Of a DNA stretch of 64,000 nucleotides, positions 24,852 through 50,709 are shown piece after piece (position 1 is the stretch's first letter; the number at the start of each line of letters is the position of its first letter). Source of the DNA: Alitabrizicola rongguiensis (GTDB lineage Bacteria; Pseudomonadota; Alphaproteobacteria; Rhodobacterales; Rhodobacteraceae); assembly GCF_021491355.1 (NCBI RefSeq), contig NZ_JAKENF010000002.1, positions 620,001 through 684,000 on the forward strand, read 5' to 3'. The notes under the pieces are model-generated. The model was not told the origin of the DNA, did not search any database, and saw nothing but the letters and a program-made list of their open reading frames with translations. Both the position numbers and the translations under genes were made by a program.

Positions 24852-25919
24852 TCAGGCCATGCCGCCGGCCACCAGTCCCGCCGCGATCCGCGCATAGGCG
24901 TCAGCCGCCGGCCCTTCGCCCGCCGCGACCGGGGTGCCGCTGTCACCTGCGAGCCGCACATCGAGACTCAATGGCAATTCCCCGAGGAAGGGCAGCCCCA
25001 GCTGCTTGGCCTCGGCCCGTACGCCGCCATGGCCGAAGATATGCTCCTCATGGCCGCAATTGGGGCAAATGAAGGTCGACATATTCTCGATCAACCCCAG
25101 GACAGGGGTGTTGAGCTTGCGGAACATGTCGAGCGCCTTGCGCGCGTCGAGCAGAGCGACGTCCTGCGGCGTCGAGACCACGATCGCCCCGGTCAGCCTC
25201 GTCCGCTGGCAAAGCGTGAGCTGGATGTCACCGGTGCCCGGTGGCAGATCGACGATCAGCACGTCAAGCCGTCCCCACTCCACCTGGGTCAGCAATTGCT
25301 GAAGCGCCCCCATGATCATGGGGCCCCGCCACACCACCGCCTCGTTCTCCTTGAGCATCAGCCCCATCGACATCATGACGACGCCGTGCGCCTCGAGCGG
25401 CAGGATCGTCTTTCCGTCCGGTGAAGCCGGGCGCTTGCTCACCCCCATCATCCGGGCCTGCGACGGACCATAGATGTCGGCATCGAGCAGCCCCACGCGC
25501 CGCCCCTGCCGCGCCAACGCGACGGCAAGATTTGACGAGACGGTAGATTTGCCCACTCCACCCTTGCCGCTGGCGATCGCGAGGATGCGGTCGACGCCGG
25601 ATACGGGCTGAGGCCCGCCTTGCTGAGGCGTCGGGTGCTGGCCGATCTTCAGGCTCGGGGGTGCCGCCTTGGTCGCCGGTGCCGTCAGCACGATCTGGAC
25701 GGAGGTCACCCCCGGAAGTTCACGCAAGGCTGCCTCGGCGCGCGCACGGGCCGGCTCCAGCGCCTGCGCCGTTGCGGCGTCGGCAACCTCGATGACGAAA
25801 CGCACCAGCCCGGCCTCGACCGTCAAGGCACGGACCAGGTCCCGCGAAACAAAGTCGCCGCCTCCGGGGACGTCGATTCCCGAAAGCACCTTGATCACGG
25901 ACTCACGCGACACCGACAT
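24852..25919 (-). CDS. apbC: Mrp/ApbC-family iron-sulfur carrier ATPase
   Basis: A 355-residue cytoplasmic P-loop ATPase that carries and delivers Fe-S clusters. The N-terminal ~80 residues form a DUF59 (MIP18-like) domain; the P-loop SGKGGVGKST is at 117-126 (deviant Walker A of the Mrp/MinD group), followed by DADIYGPS, DLPPGTGD, and the FICPNCG motif whose CxxC binds the bridging cluster. It lies upstream of the dcw cluster on the same strand, 630 bases from mraZ, and is probably a separate unit. Confidence 0.95.
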   Translation of the reverse strand: MSVSRESVIKVLSGIDVPGGGDFVSRDLVRALTVEAGLVRFVIEVADAATAQALEPARARAEAALRELPGVTSVQIVLTAPATKAAPPSLKIGQHPTPQQGGPQPVSGVDRILAIASGKGGVGKSTVSSNLAVALARQGRRVGLLDADIYGPSQARMMGVSKRPASPDGKTILPLEAHGVVMMSMGLMLKENEAVVWRGPMIMGALQQLLTQVEWGRLDVLIVDLPPGTGDIQLTLCQRTRLTGAIVVSTPQDVALLDARKALDMFRKLNTPVLGLIENMSTFICPNCGHEEHIFGHGGVRAEAKQLGLPFLGELPLSLDVRLAGDSGTPVAAGEGPAADAYARIAAGLVAGGMA

Positions 25920-26055
25920 GGCTGTCTCCCCAGGCTTTGCTTGGGCGAATACGTCGCGCTTTGATCGCGTCAGGGCAAGGCCCGTTCGTACGCTGCACAG
26001 ATTTCAGGCGCGCCAGTCGCCGCAATGTCAAAATTACGTAAAGGAAGCCATGCAC

Positions 26056-26084
26056 TTGCCGCATGGCAGCATTGATGACCTAAC
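26056..26084 (+). promoter_or_regulatory. Possible RpoH-type promoter of the DUF1127-sRNA operon
   Basis: TTGCCG (26056) and CCTAAC (26079) are 17 bases apart and fit loosely the TTG...C-rich -10 pattern of RpoHI/RpoHII promoters in Rhodobacter, where the homologous operon is under RpoHI/RpoHII control. Transcription would start near 26091. The match is weak, and the assignment leans on the known behaviour of the homologous locus. Confidence 0.3.
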
Positions 26085-26169
26085 TTATTGTGCATCTGCA
26101 GCATTGGGTTATGTTTGCCCTAACAGCGCGAAACTAAACAAGCGCACGCGAGACGATAGAGGCAAGACG

Positions 26170-26385
26170 ATGAGCTACGTAACCACTTCCACCGCTGTAC
26201 GCGCCGGCCTTCCGGACCGTCTGTCGGCGATGCGGAAAGCAGTGGCCGACATGCTTCGCAAGCGGCGACTGTACAACCAGACCTTCCGGGAACTCGCGGT
26301 CCTGACCGACCGTGAACTCGCGGACCTCGGCATCAATCGCACGCTGATCCCCGAGATCGCTGCGCAGGCTGCCTACGGCAAGTAG
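26170..26385 (+). CDS. DUF1127 small RNA-associated protein (CcaF1-like)
   Basis: A 71-residue basic protein. The C-terminal half holds the DUF1127 core, RRLYNQTFRELAVLTDRELADLGI with the LxDRxLxDxGI signature (trimmed here). The ATG at 26170 follows AGAGGCAAG. Directly after it come four CCTCCTCCC-loop sRNA units. In Rhodobacter sphaeroides this arrangement is RSP_6037 (CcaF1) with CcsR1-4: one stress-induced transcript processed by RNase E, with CcaF1 affecting sRNA maturation and turnover. The same role is inferred here from the identical layout. Confidence 0.85.
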   Translation: MSYVTTSTAVRAGLPDRLSAMRKAVADMLRKRRLYNQTFRELAVLTDRELADLGINRTLIPEIAAQAAYGK

Positions 26386-26392
26386 GATTATT

Positions 26393-26475
26393 GCTGGACC
26401 CCTCTCCTCCTCCCCGGGGTCCATAGCAAAAGCGGCGGCACTTCTCCTCCTCCCTGGTGCCGCCGCACTTTCTTC
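26393..26475 (+). ncRNA. CcsR/cuckoo-type small RNA, unit 1
   Basis: Two hairpins. The first pairs 26395-26402 with 26416-26423; the second pairs 26432-26441 with 26457-26466 (perfect 10 bp). Each loop exposes CCTCCTCCC (26406-26414 and 26446-26454), which can pair with Shine-Dalgarno-like GGGAGGAGG. The second hairpin is followed by ACTTTCTT. It starts only eight bases after the DUF1127 stop, so it is likely released by processing of that mRNA. Ends are approximate. Confidence 0.85.
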
Positions 26476-26502
26476 GGAAGCCCTTGCTTCCACCGGCGTA
26501 CG

Positions 26503-26575
26503 AAAGGCCCCTCCTCCTCCCTGGGCCGATCGGACCAGCGGCGACCCCCTCCTCCTCCCTGGGGTCGCCGCGCCA
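26503..26575 (+). ncRNA. CcsR/cuckoo-type small RNA, unit 2
   Basis: First hairpin: GGCCC at 26506-26510 with GGGCC at 26523-26527. Second hairpin: 26539-26548 with 26561-26570 (perfect 10 bp, CGGCGACCCC arm). Loops carry CCTCCTCCC at 26513-26521 and 26551-26559. Hairpin starts are 111 bases after those of unit 1. Ends are approximate. Confidence 0.85.
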
Positions 26576-26616
26576 AGATCCGGGGATCGGGCGCAGGCCC
26601 GCCACCCCAAAGCAGA

Positions 26617-26695
26617 TGCGTTCGGCCTTCCTCCTCCCTCGGGCCGGGCGTAGCAGGCGGCGATACCCCTCCTCCTCCCTGGGTGTCGTCGCAGA
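26617..26695 (+). ncRNA. CcsR/cuckoo-type small RNA, unit 3
   Basis: First hairpin pairs 26620-26627 with 26642-26649 (two G-U pairs); second pairs 26659-26668 with 26681-26690 (two G-U pairs). CCTCCTCCC loops lie at 26630-26638 and 26671-26679. The stems differ from the other units in sequence while the loops are unchanged, which shows that structure and loop are what is conserved. Ends are approximate. Confidence 0.85.
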
Positions 26696-26726
26696 CATAC
26701 CGGGCCCATCGGGTCCGAGGGCTACG

Positions 26727-26806
26727 AAGGACCCCTCCTCCTCCCTGGGTCCGACGTGCAGAACGGCGGCGCTCCTCCTCCTCCCTGAGCGCCGCCGTTT
26801 CCTTTT
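26727..26806 (+). ncRNA. CcsR/cuckoo-type small RNA, unit 4
   Basis: First hairpin pairs 26729-26734 with 26747-26752; second pairs 26762-26774 with 26787-26799, a perfect 13-bp stem followed by CCTTTTCC, which probably ends the whole transcript. Loops show CCTCCTCCC at 26737-26745 and 26777-26785. This is the last unit before the transporter gene. Ends are approximate. Confidence 0.85.
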
Positions 26807-26882
26807 CCGCCCCCGTTGATTGCCTTCCGATTGCAACTCTGCCGCCACCCGCTAAAGGTCGGGCGAAAAGCAGGAGTTCGTG

Positions 26883-28034
26883 ATGCGCCTTTCGATGATC
26901 TCCGCGGCCCTTGTCGCCGCCCTCGTCGGATATGGCTCGACCATCACACTGGTACTTGCCGCCGCTGGCGCAGTCAGCGCAACTCCGGCGCAGACAGCGT
27001 CCTGGGTCTTTGCCGTCTGCCTCATCAAGGCGGCAGGCAGCGCGTTTCTCAGTGCAACCAGCCGGGTACCTGTTGTGCTGGCCTGGTCAACGCCTGGCGC
27101 AGCTCTGATCGCAGCCACGACCGGAATCAGCATGGCGCAGGCAGTCGGAGCCTTCCTGCTGGCCGGGGCGCTGATCGCTATGACAGGGGCTGTCCGCCCG
27201 CTCGGCAGGCTGGTTGCAGCAATTCCCGACGGTATCGCCGCAGGCATGCTCGCGGGCGTCCTCCTGCCTTTCGTGCTGAAACTCGCCGGCGCCGTGCAGA
27301 TCGCGCCGAAGCAGGTCCTGCCAATGGTGCTCATCTTTGCGCTGGTGCGGCTGTGGAACCCGTCCTTCGCCGTGCTGGTCGCGCTCGCGACCGGCGTCGT
27401 GACCGGCCTTCACCCCGAGGCACTGGCAGGGTTCAGCTTCGCCCTGCCCCGCCTGACCTTCATTGCACCCGAATTCACGCCGGGCGTGCTGATCGGCCTC
27501 GGCCTGCCGCTCTATCTGGTGACGATGGCCTCGCAGAACCTTCCCGGCTTCGCAACGCTCCGCGCCGCCGGATACGAACCACCCGTCCGCCCGGCACTCG
27601 CTGTCACCGGCGGGCTGTCAGCCCTCGGCGGCCTCTTCGGCTCGCACACGATCAGCATGGCCGCGATCACCGCCGCGATCTGTCTGGGCGACGACGTGCA
27701 CCCCGACAGGAACCAGCGCTGGAAGGTCGGGCTTGCCTACGCGGCAGTCTGGGTCTGCCTTGGCATCTTCGGCCCGCTGATCCTCGCGCTGATCGGCGCC
27801 CTGCCCGCCGCCACAATGACCGCGCTCGTGGCACTTGCGCTGCTCGGGCCACTGACCGGCGCGCTGACCGGCGCCTTCTCTCATCCGCCGCAGCGCTTCG
27901 CCGCAGCCGTGACGCTGACCACCACAGCCTCGGGTGTCGCCTTCTTCGGCATCGGCGCGGCCTTCTGGGGGCTGATCGCGGGCCTGACGATCTTCGGACT
28001 CGAGCACACGGCCAGCCGCCTCAAGAGACAGTAG
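26883..28034 (+). CDS. BenE-family (benzoate/H+ symporter-like) transporter
   Basis: A 383-residue inner membrane protein with about twelve helices, of the BenE family within the nucleobase-transporter-like APC superfamily. Characteristic stretches are TRVPVVLAWSTPGAAL-like SRVPVVLAWSTPGAAL, IPDGIAAGMLAGVLL, TMASQNLPGFATL and GSHTISMAAITAAIC. Members take up benzoate or related acids; the actual substrate here is not shown and no benzoate genes are nearby. ATG 26883 follows CAGGAG by six bases and is preferred to the GTG three bases earlier. Confidence 0.88.
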   Translation: MRLSMISAALVAALVGYGSTITLVLAAAGAVSATPAQTASWVFAVCLIKAAGSAFLSATSRVPVVLAWSTPGAALIAATTGISMAQAVGAFLLAGALIAMTGAVRPLGRLVAAIPDGIAAGMLAGVLLPFVLKLAGAVQIAPKQVLPMVLIFALVRLWNPSFAVLVALATGVVTGLHPEALAGFSFALPRLTFIAPEFTPGVLIGLGLPLYLVTMASQNLPGFATLRAAGYEPPVRPALAVTGGLSALGGLFGSHTISMAAITAAICLGDDVHPDRNQRWKVGLAYAAVWVCLGIFGPLILALIGALPAATMTALVALALLGPLTGALTGAFSHPPQRFAAAVTLTTTASGVAFFGIGAAFWGLIAGLTIFGLEHTASRLKRQ

Positions 28035-49393: not shown

Positions 49394-49422
49394 CGCCCCG
49401 TTCCAATTGGGAGGAGGACGCG

Positions 49423-50709
49423 ATGAGCGAGACCCTTGGCTTCGATACCCTGCAGGTCCATGCCGGCAACCGCCCCGACCCGGCGACGGGCGCGCGGCAG
49501 GTGCCGATCTACCAGACCACGGCCTTTGTCTTCCGCGATGCGGATCATGCGGCCAAGCTCTTCAACCTGCAGGAAGTCGGCTACATCTACTCGCGCCTGA
49601 CCAACCCCACGGTCAGCGCGCTGGCCGAGCGGGTCGCGGCGCTGGAGGGGGGCGCAGGCGCGGTCTGCTGCTCATCAGGCCACGCGGCGCAGATCATGGC
49701 GCTGTTCCCGCTCATGCAGCCGGGCTGCAACGTGGTCGCCGCCAACAAGCTTTATGGCGGCACGATCCAGCAGCTTGGCAATACGATCCGCAAGTTCGGC
49801 TGGTCAGCCAAGTTCGTCGATTTCGATGACCTGAAGGCGGTCGAGGCTGCGGTGGACGAGAACACCCGCGCGATCTTCTGCGAGTCGATCGCCAATCCCG
49901 GCGGTTACATCACCGACCTCGACGCGATCGCCAAGATCGCCAACAAAGTCGGCCTGCCGCTGATCGTCGACAACACCTCGGCCTCGCCCTATCTGTGCAA
50001 CCCGATCAAGCATGGTGCGACTTTGGTCGTACATTCGGCGACCAAGTACCTGACCGGCAACGGCACCGTCACCGGCGGCATTGTGGTGGACTCGGGCAAG
50101 TTCGACTGGTCGGCCTCGGGCAAGTTCCCGAGCCTCGCCGCGCCCGAGCCCGCCTATCACGGGCTGAACTTCCATGCGGCCCTTGGGGGGATGGCCTTCA
50201 CCTTCCACTCGATCGCCGTTGGCCTCCGCGACCTGGGCATGACGATGAACCCGCAGGGCGCGCATTACACGCTCATGGGCATAGAGACGCTCAGCCTGCG
50301 TATGGAGCGCCATGTCGCCAACGCGAAGAAGGTCGCGGAATGGCTTGAAAAGGATTCCAGAATCGACGCGGTGACCTATGCCGGCCTGCCGTCCTCGCCC
50401 TACCATTCCCGCATCGCGCGGATCTGCCCAAAAGGGGCCGGGGCGCTGTTCACCTTCGCGGTGAAGGGCGGCTACGACGCCTGCGTGAAGCTGATCGACT
50501 CGGTGAAGCTTTTCAGCCATGTGGCCAACCTCGGTGATGCGCGCTCGCTCATCATCCATTCGGCCTCGACCACGCACCGTCAGCTTTCGCCCGAACAGCA
50601 GATCGCTGCCGGCGCCGGGCCGAACGTGGTCCGCGTCTCGATCGGCATCGAGGATCCAGCCGACATCATCGCCGATCTGGATCAGGCGCTGGCAAAGGCC
50701 ACAGCCTGA
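49423..50709 (+). CDS. metY: O-acetylhomoserine aminocarboxypropyltransferase / sulfhydrylase
   Basis: A 428-residue PLP enzyme of the Cys/Met-metabolism family that makes homocysteine (or cysteine) from O-acetylhomoserine and sulfide. Features are QVPIYQTTAFVFRD, GYIYSRLTNPTVSALAERVAALEGG (trimmed), the PLP lysine Lys208 in HSATKYLTGNG, and SLRMERHVANA. The length near 430 fits the sulfhydrylase rather than the shorter cystathionine enzymes. Start 49423 follows GGGAGGAGG. A bidirectional-looking terminator follows. Confidence 0.93.
   Translation: MSETLGFDTLQVHAGNRPDPATGARQVPIYQTTAFVFRDADHAAKLFNLQEVGYIYSRLTNPTVSALAERVAALEGGAGAVCCSSGHAAQIMALFPLMQPGCNVVAANKLYGGTIQQLGNTIRKFGWSAKFVDFDDLKAVEAAVDENTRAIFCESIANPGGYITDLDAIAKIANKVGLPLIVDNTSASPYLCNPIKHGATLVVHSATKYLTGNGTVTGGIVVDSGKFDWSASGKFPSLAAPEPAYHGLNFHAALGGMAFTFHSIAVGLRDLGMTMNPQGAHYTLMGIETLSLRMERHVANAKKVAEWLEKDSRIDAVTYAGLPSSPYHSRIARICPKGAGALFTFAVKGGYDACVKLIDSVKLFSHVANLGDARSLIIHSASTTHRQLSPEQQIAAGAGPNVVRVSIGIEDPADIIADLDQALAKATA

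Follow-up and report, generated by a model that had tools for sequence, protein, structure and literature searches.

A ccaF1-CcsR1-4 operon in a Rhodobacteraceae genome and a putative LsrB/VtlR-type operator at its promoter

Gene content and hairpin array of the locus

The locus described here lies within a 64-kb stretch of DNA (the window) from a 4.2 Mb Rhodobacteraceae genome. Its first gene, a ccaF1-like gene on the forward strand (26170..26385), encodes a 71-aa DUF1127 protein (PF06568, 38.6 bits; cut-off 23.3) and is one of nine DUF1127 matches in the genome at E <= 0.01, seven of which exceed the cut-off. A divergent gene for an Mrp/NBP35-type iron-sulfur P-loop NTPase (24852..25919, reverse strand; PF10609, 331 bits) flanks it on one side, and a gene for a BenE-family transporter (26880..28034, forward strand; PF03594, 328 bits; TIGR00843, 260 bits) lies downstream. 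Directly 3' of the 71-codon gene are four two-hairpin units, or eight hairpins; the DUF1127 gene stands directly upstream of unit 1 on the same strand, the arrangement by which a CIN1 locus is recognised. A preliminary description had reported a DUF1127 gene followed by four tandem two-hairpin units with every loop intact, and both statements hold: gene and hairpins were recovered, and all eight loops (8/8) carry an exact CCUCCUCCC.

Exact copies of CCTCCTCCC were located on the forward strand at 26406, 26446, 26513, 26551, 26630, 26671, 26737, and 26777. Eight of the nine copies of this 9-mer in the window fall within 380 bases, while the ninth (49409, reverse strand) is separate from the array. 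Shuffled versions of the 64-kb window held a mean of 0.93 copies (maximum 4), and none of 100 shuffles reached nine. The array block folded at -209.8 kcal/mol compared with a shuffled mean of -170.5 (z -6.35; 0 of 100 shuffles equal), with each of the eight loops forming its own stem.

Unit 1 (CcsR1; 26386..26471, forward strand; loops at 26406 and 26446) scored 81.6 bits with the Rfam CcsR1 model RF02791, above the curated gathering cut-off of 65.3 bits. Below that cut-off, and in this respect unlike RF02791 CcsR1, were unit 2 (CcsR2-like; 26496..26576; loops at 26513 and 26551; 48.9 bits, E 1.1e-10), unit 3 (CcsR3-like; 26615..26697; loops at 26630 and 26671; 32.6 bits, E 7e-6), and unit 4 (CcsR4-like; 26721..26803; loops at 26737 and 26777; 48.6 bits, E 1.4e-10), all on the forward strand. 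The expectation that a covariance search with the cuckoo model would recognise the array was borne out for unit 1 and not, at the curated threshold, for units 2-4. Two of the distances first reported are revised. Measured from first loop to first loop, the units are spaced by 107, 117, and 107 bases, where a period of 109-114 had been given. The TAG stop ends at 26385 and the RF02791 match starts at 26386; since the match begins right after the stop, its Rfam structure leaves 6 bases, not eight, between the stop and the first stem.

Small hairpins were also observed between the units, three in number, within 26472-26725. The linker between units 1 and 2 holds GGAAGC-CCTT-GCTTCC (26476..26491, forward strand; -8.8 kcal/mol for 26472-26500), and the other linkers fold too (26572-26615 at -18.0 and 26692-26725 at -12.4 kcal/mol). 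These three hairpins, together with the promoter box and the LysR link treated below, were absent from the preliminary description. At the 3' end of the array, the last hairpin of unit 4 has arms at 26762-26774 and 26787-26799 (inverted repeat of 13 bp, 100%) and runs into TTTCCTTTT. Judged by this sequence, it may be the terminator of the operon; a terminator scan restricted to loops of 3-8 did not list it.

Identity and conservation of the operon

The interval is almost certainly the ccaF1-CcsR1-4 operon known from Rhodobacter sphaeroides, and it is a new copy of this already known stress system in a related Rhodobacteraceae genome. The layout had been likened to CcaF1-CcsR1-4 from the start, and the RF02791 match together with the 71-aa DUF1127 ORF identifies this as the right system. 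Features in common with R. sphaeroides are the 71-aa DUF1127 gene (the length given for CcaF1 in PMC10253847), four RNAs downstream, the CCUCCUCCC loops, and a first unit above the RF02791 cut-off. As described for R. sphaeroides, ccaF1 is co-transcribed with four CcsR RNAs from an RpoHI/RpoHII promoter and the transcript is processed by RNase E (PMC10253847); flhR is reported as a target, with effects on glutathione and pyruvate dehydrogenase (PMC8307010). By analogy, the sRNAs of the source genome would be released by processing, which fits the RNase E processing of R. sphaeroides (PMC10253847). The array also resembles alpha-r14 / NfeR1 of Sinorhizobium meliloti (RF02344), of the 'cuckoo RNA' family, in its CCUCCUCCC loops and variable stems; this cuckoo loop has been named an anti-Shine-Dalgarno motif (PMC3927594). 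NfeR1 differs in having three hairpins per RNA, a sigma-70 core, and an NtrC site, as described in PMC10746234, and the best RF02344 match of the window (55.4 bits) does not reach the cut-off of 58.8.

Matches to RF02791 at E <= 0.001 were found in 121 of 149 Rhodobacteraceae genomes, nine of them passing the cut-off. The 30 family loci that were read carry between 2 and 14 exact loops each, so the eight intact loops in the window are ordinary. In a comparison of eight genomes picked from the top RF02791 matches, unit 1 shared 80% identity with other first units and 72% with the other units of its own array; for later units, the values were 83% within a genome and 75% between genomes. By these identities, unit 1 is the orthologous unit across genomes, and the higher within-genome identity suggests that the later units arose by local amplification. 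Three loci (L009, L012, and L037) carry 12 to 14 loops, with later units of nearly equal score, a pattern that suggests recent tandem amplification.

Elsewhere in the source genome, four weak RF02791 matches (E 0.023-0.31) were considered as further CcsR loci; none had a CCTCCTCCC in about 3 kb each, and they look like chance. A link to phages was considered as well and rejected, with no exact CCTCCTCCC in flanks of up to 1 kb at 56 viral-contig DUF1127 loci (L038-L093).

Compensating stem changes had been noted between the units of the array, and among relatives they were borne out for hairpin 2 of unit 1. Across 65 sequences, two-sided changes occurred in 11 of 11 pairs, a count that none of 500 shuffles reached (mean 7.0), and 92.9% of cells paired compared with 77.0 in shuffles, the structure being that derived from a first sample of 44. 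This first sample, which omitted mostly diverged unit-1 sequences, had 96.5% of cells paired and two-sided changes in 7 of 11 pairs, where shuffles gave 2.9 (none of 500 as high). RNAalifold on the 44 unit-1 sequences predicted no consensus hairpin 1.

The scores of units 2-4 under the Rfam cut-off would be expected if the eight hairpins were a functionless repeat array, arisen by chance or decaying. Such a reading is extremely improbable given the exact loop motif in all eight hairpins, the two-sided compensating changes, the RF02791 matches in 121 of 149 family genomes, and the R. sphaeroides counterpart, which is reported to be expressed and processed (PMC10253847).

A conserved box in the ccaF1 promoter

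Upstream of ccaF1 lies a putative LsrB/VtlR-type operator of 25 bp, ATGCACTTGCCGCATGGCAGCATTG (26050..26074, forward strand), which contains an exact TGCA-N6-GCAT. The window thus holds the form of an LsrB/VtlR operator, TGCA-N6-GCAT / TGCATGGCTGCATTG, upstream of a promoter. Set against the reverse complement of the VtlR motif published for Brucella, the right half of the box agrees at 13 of 15 positions, and no other site on either strand of the 64 kb reaches 13/15. Compared by eye with the GCAT-N3-TG-N3-T form of VtlR, as given in PMC8844928 and PMC7486931, the box is one base off, with AG for TG. A second conserved promoter element, ATTGTGCATCTGCAGCATTG (26087..26106, forward strand), holds a -35-like TTGTGC (26088-26093), and a -10-like TATGTT (26110..26115, forward strand) follows 16 nt after it. 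This TTGTGC-16-TATGTT arrangement (26088-26115) is conserved in relatives; a sigma-70 consensus scan at the ccaF1 promoter gave no match.

Alignment of 21 family loci revealed a conserved block upstream of the DUF1127 gene, consisting of ATGC-N5-YYGCATRGCNGMRTTG, 12-13 nt, TTGTGCA-NN-YGCAGCA, and a -10-like element. The box pattern derived from these 21 CcsR-linked promoters occurs exactly at 82 sites in 81 of 149 family genomes, and the backwards pattern at none in the same 149; TGCA-N6-GCAT is exact in 54 of the 82. An exact loop follows within 1.1 kb on the same strand at 77 of the 82 sites, and two or more loops at 73. Because the pattern was drawn from CcsR-linked promoters, part of this association is built in. 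Genomes that did not supply the 21 pattern loci contain 66 of the sites, and loops follow 61 of these 66. Among the 77 loop-bearing loci, TTGTGC is found 12-13 nt past the box in 71, and TANNT occupies the -10-like place in 39 of these 71 aligned promoters. At 7 of the 77 sites the first loop is less than 150 nt from the box, too short a distance to fit a DUF1127 gene; the box therefore tracks the sRNA transcript.

The box was present in 79 of 121 genomes with a CcsR match versus 2 of 28 without (Fisher p 1.2e-8, kinship ignored), the presence lists having been read by eye and eight of the genomes without CcsR being those missing from the hit list. The exact box is missing from 68 of the 149 family genomes, 42 of which have a CcsR match. 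Among the five box sites without loops, three (L127, L132, and L171) precede a DUF1127 gene (Pfam 44-55 bits), one (L106) has a LysR gene on one side and a SorY-like core on the other, and one (L176; G107:C15:241136-241160) is an exact box before a 53-codon ORF with no Pfam match and no loops. At L127 (G085:C42:63867-63891), several CTCCTCC near-loops but not one exact CCTCCTCCC follow the box and DUF1127 gene; this may be a cuckoo array whose loops have changed. Another genome (L375/L388; G055:C1, 2821066-2821383) carries a pair of boxes separated by 293 nt: loops lie 95 and 134 nt past the first, which has 1 mismatch, and a DUF1127 gene follows the second.

A class-wide search for the extended box at <=1 mismatch found it at 30 sites across 25 of 190 genomes, against 4 for the reversed control; two of the 30 are from the source genome, two from another family member, and 26 from outside the family. 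None of these 26 precedes exact loops or a DUF1127 gene, as searched by regular expression; two lie behind a LysR ortholog and 24 have no recognised client. Since 0 of 26 outside sites mark cuckoo loci, the exact extended box is a feature of the family and not of the class. The source genome itself has three box sites at <=2 mismatches: the ccaF1 promoter (0 mismatches), one behind a LysR gene, and L095. In 345 bases inspected by eye, the last (2 mismatches) had neither a promoter element nor an sRNA feature, and it was put down to chance. No box within 2 mismatches lies near any of the genome's other eight DUF1127 matches.

Proximity raises the question of whether the box belongs to the divergent mrp gene and is near the sRNA operon by accident. 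In the window it begins 131 bp from the mrp start codon. Of the 82 box stretches, many with only about 400 nt upstream, 55 gave a tblastn Mrp match. The remaining 27, many likewise short upstream, have no Mrp; boxes also occur between LysR genes and SorY-like RNAs; and the gap from box to TTGTGC is held at 12-13 nt in most loop-bearing loci. An accidental placement beside the operon is therefore improbable, although the divergent mrp gene could be the client of the box in some genomes.

A LysR-type regulator and its adjoining SorY-like RNA

The LysR gene with a box about 100 nt behind it (G000:C7:731946-732839) is on another contig than ccaF1. The order across this region (G000:C7:731946-732962; L096 509-1662) is the LsrB-like LysR gene, the box, an RpoH-like promoter, and a SorY-like RNA. 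The RNA scored 72 bits (E 8.5e-14), short of the curated cut-off of 111, and is preceded by CTTGAA-16-CCTAGAT, which resembles the S. meliloti RpoH1 promoter by the consensus given in PMC8844928.

The best PDB match of the LysR protein was 9HH1 (247.7 bits; next 114.5), described as the structure of A. tumefaciens LsrB (PMC11975290). The closest named record among the matches listed was an unclassified Rhodobacter MAG, 91% identical. Of 100 family genomes, 97 each gave a single match at E <= 1e-60; at class level, 107 of 190 genomes had a match at E <= 1e-50. When a 52%-identical class member was used in the reverse search, the LysR protein was recovered at 315 bits and the next paralog at 119. 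An ortholog of LsrB, by reciprocal search, thus stands beside an anti-Shine-Dalgarno sRNA, as in the LsrB/VtlR regulon. LsrB has been stated to be unique to Rhizobiales (PMC11975290), and the reciprocal-search orthology would speak against this.

The linkage of regulator and sRNA is widespread. An sRNA core of the form CTCCC-N-GTTGG was found <=300 nt downstream in 72 of 80 named Rhodobacteraceae LysR loci, and in 29 of another 30 family LysR loci. The LysR-side box at <=4/19 mismatches was present in 58 of the 80 named loci (1.8% in shuffles), and box and core together in 57; most of the loci read have a degenerate box on the SorY side. The SorY-like RNA locus is a probable second client of the same LysR regulator.

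This arrangement resembles the LsrB/VtlR-AbcR locus of Rhizobiales, in which a LysR gene adjoins an anti-Shine-Dalgarno sRNA with the box in between; the lsrB-abcR layout of S. meliloti, with a LysR gene beside an sRNA, is described in PMC8844928 and PMC7143759. Rhizobiales LsrB/VtlR also controls DUF1127 genes: Brucella VtlR is reported to regulate AbcR2 and three of them (PMC12595884). For A. tumefaciens, PMC7486931 describes activation by VtlR of abcR1 and of atu1667, which is orthologous to VtlR-activated Brucella genes. Unlike the rhizobial locus, the neighbouring RNA here is SorY-like, and the other client joins a DUF1127 gene and cuckoo RNAs in one operon. The parallel extends to S. meliloti NfeR1, a CCUCCUCCC RNA that also has an upstream TGCA-N6-GCAT box: LsrB is reported to bind this sequence at -72 to -60 of the nfeR1 promoter, to activate transcription, and to be needed for it (PMC10746234). 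That S. meliloti LsrB drives NfeR1 and VtlR drives AbcR and DUF1127 genes, as these accounts have it, suggests a shared circuit. Within the open-licence PMC literature, none of the papers listed had both VtlR or LsrB and CcsR1 or CcaF1.

The R. sphaeroides operon, as described in the available text of PMC10253847 and PMC8307010, differs from this proposal of a LysR-type box, with only RpoHI/RpoHII named at this promoter and RpoE for other sRNAs. Such control by RpoHI/RpoHII alone, with the box as an extended sigma-factor promoter element and no operator, would also accommodate the conserved TTGTGC and -10-like TANNT downstream of the box. This reading is nonetheless unlikely, though not negligible. 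The palindromic part sits upstream of the -35-like element, the box holds the LsrB site published in PMC10746234, and the box variants behind the LysR gene precede the SorY-like RNA with a different core promoter, CTTGA(A/T) and a CCTAAAT-like element. Control by a LysR-type activator at the ccaF1-CcsR promoter, as read from these sequence comparisons, is probable.

Proposed regulatory circuit and candidate targets

Taken as a whole, a ccaF1-CcsR1-4 operon with a LysR step is quite likely the full explanation of the locus. A LysR-type regulator orthologous to rhizobial LsrB/VtlR would bind the box, activate the promoter jointly with an RpoH-type sigma factor, and also control the SorY-like RNA adjoining its own gene. 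Transcription may start near 26122, seven bases past the -10-like TATGTT, in which case the box would stand at about -72 to -48 from the start. A single transcript beginning upstream of the DUF1127 gene would then be expressed and cut into a short mRNA and four RNAs of about 80 nt, presumably as in R. sphaeroides by RNase E aided by the DUF1127 protein. The two CCUCCUCCC loops of each RNA would copy and extend the anti-Shine-Dalgarno tail of the ribosome (CCUCCU), and under stress could mask the sites at which ribosomes bind metabolic and transport mRNAs.

In a wider frame, LsrB/VtlR is fairly likely to be an alphaproteobacterial regulator of older origin, with anti-Shine-Dalgarno RNAs as its core clients, that drives ccaF1-CcsR and SorY in Rhodobacteraceae. 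If so, one LysR protein, together with RpoHI/RpoHII, would govern a DUF1127 RNA-binding protein and two families of stress RNAs that mask ribosome sites, and the literatures on Rhodobacter singlet-oxygen RNAs and on rhizobial AbcR/NfeR1 would join in one circuit. Should the box be an LsrB-type operator, control of CcsR and SorY, credited to RpoHI/RpoHII, would gain a missing activator of a type already characterised as redox-responsive in the rhizobial field.

The presumed 16S tail of the genome is GGATCACCTCCTTTCA (one match); by this sequence, the loop repeats the CCUCCU core plus three more C. Sites of the form GGGAGGAGG-N3-10-ATG number five in the genome (reversed control 0) and precede a propionate-CoA ligase-like gene, a Gfo/Idh oxidoreductase, an O-acetylhomoserine sulfhydrylase-like gene (window 49409), pyruvate dehydrogenase E1 alpha, and a solute-binding protein. 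Binding of these five perfect candidate targets would fit masking of strong ribosome sites, in a set too small to tell selection from ordinary strong Shine-Dalgarno sequences. The pyruvate dehydrogenase target recalls the effect described for R. sphaeroides (PMC8307010). Its site has the full 9-base match in 2 of 29 loci read, source genome included, and at least 7 bases in 10 of 29 versus 2 of 110 for a lysR control, a match that strong Shine-Dalgarno sites in general may explain. Within the window, the site at 49409-49425, GGGAGGAGGACGCGATG, is a perfect complement of the CcsR loop just before the O-acetylhomoserine sulfhydrylase-like gene.
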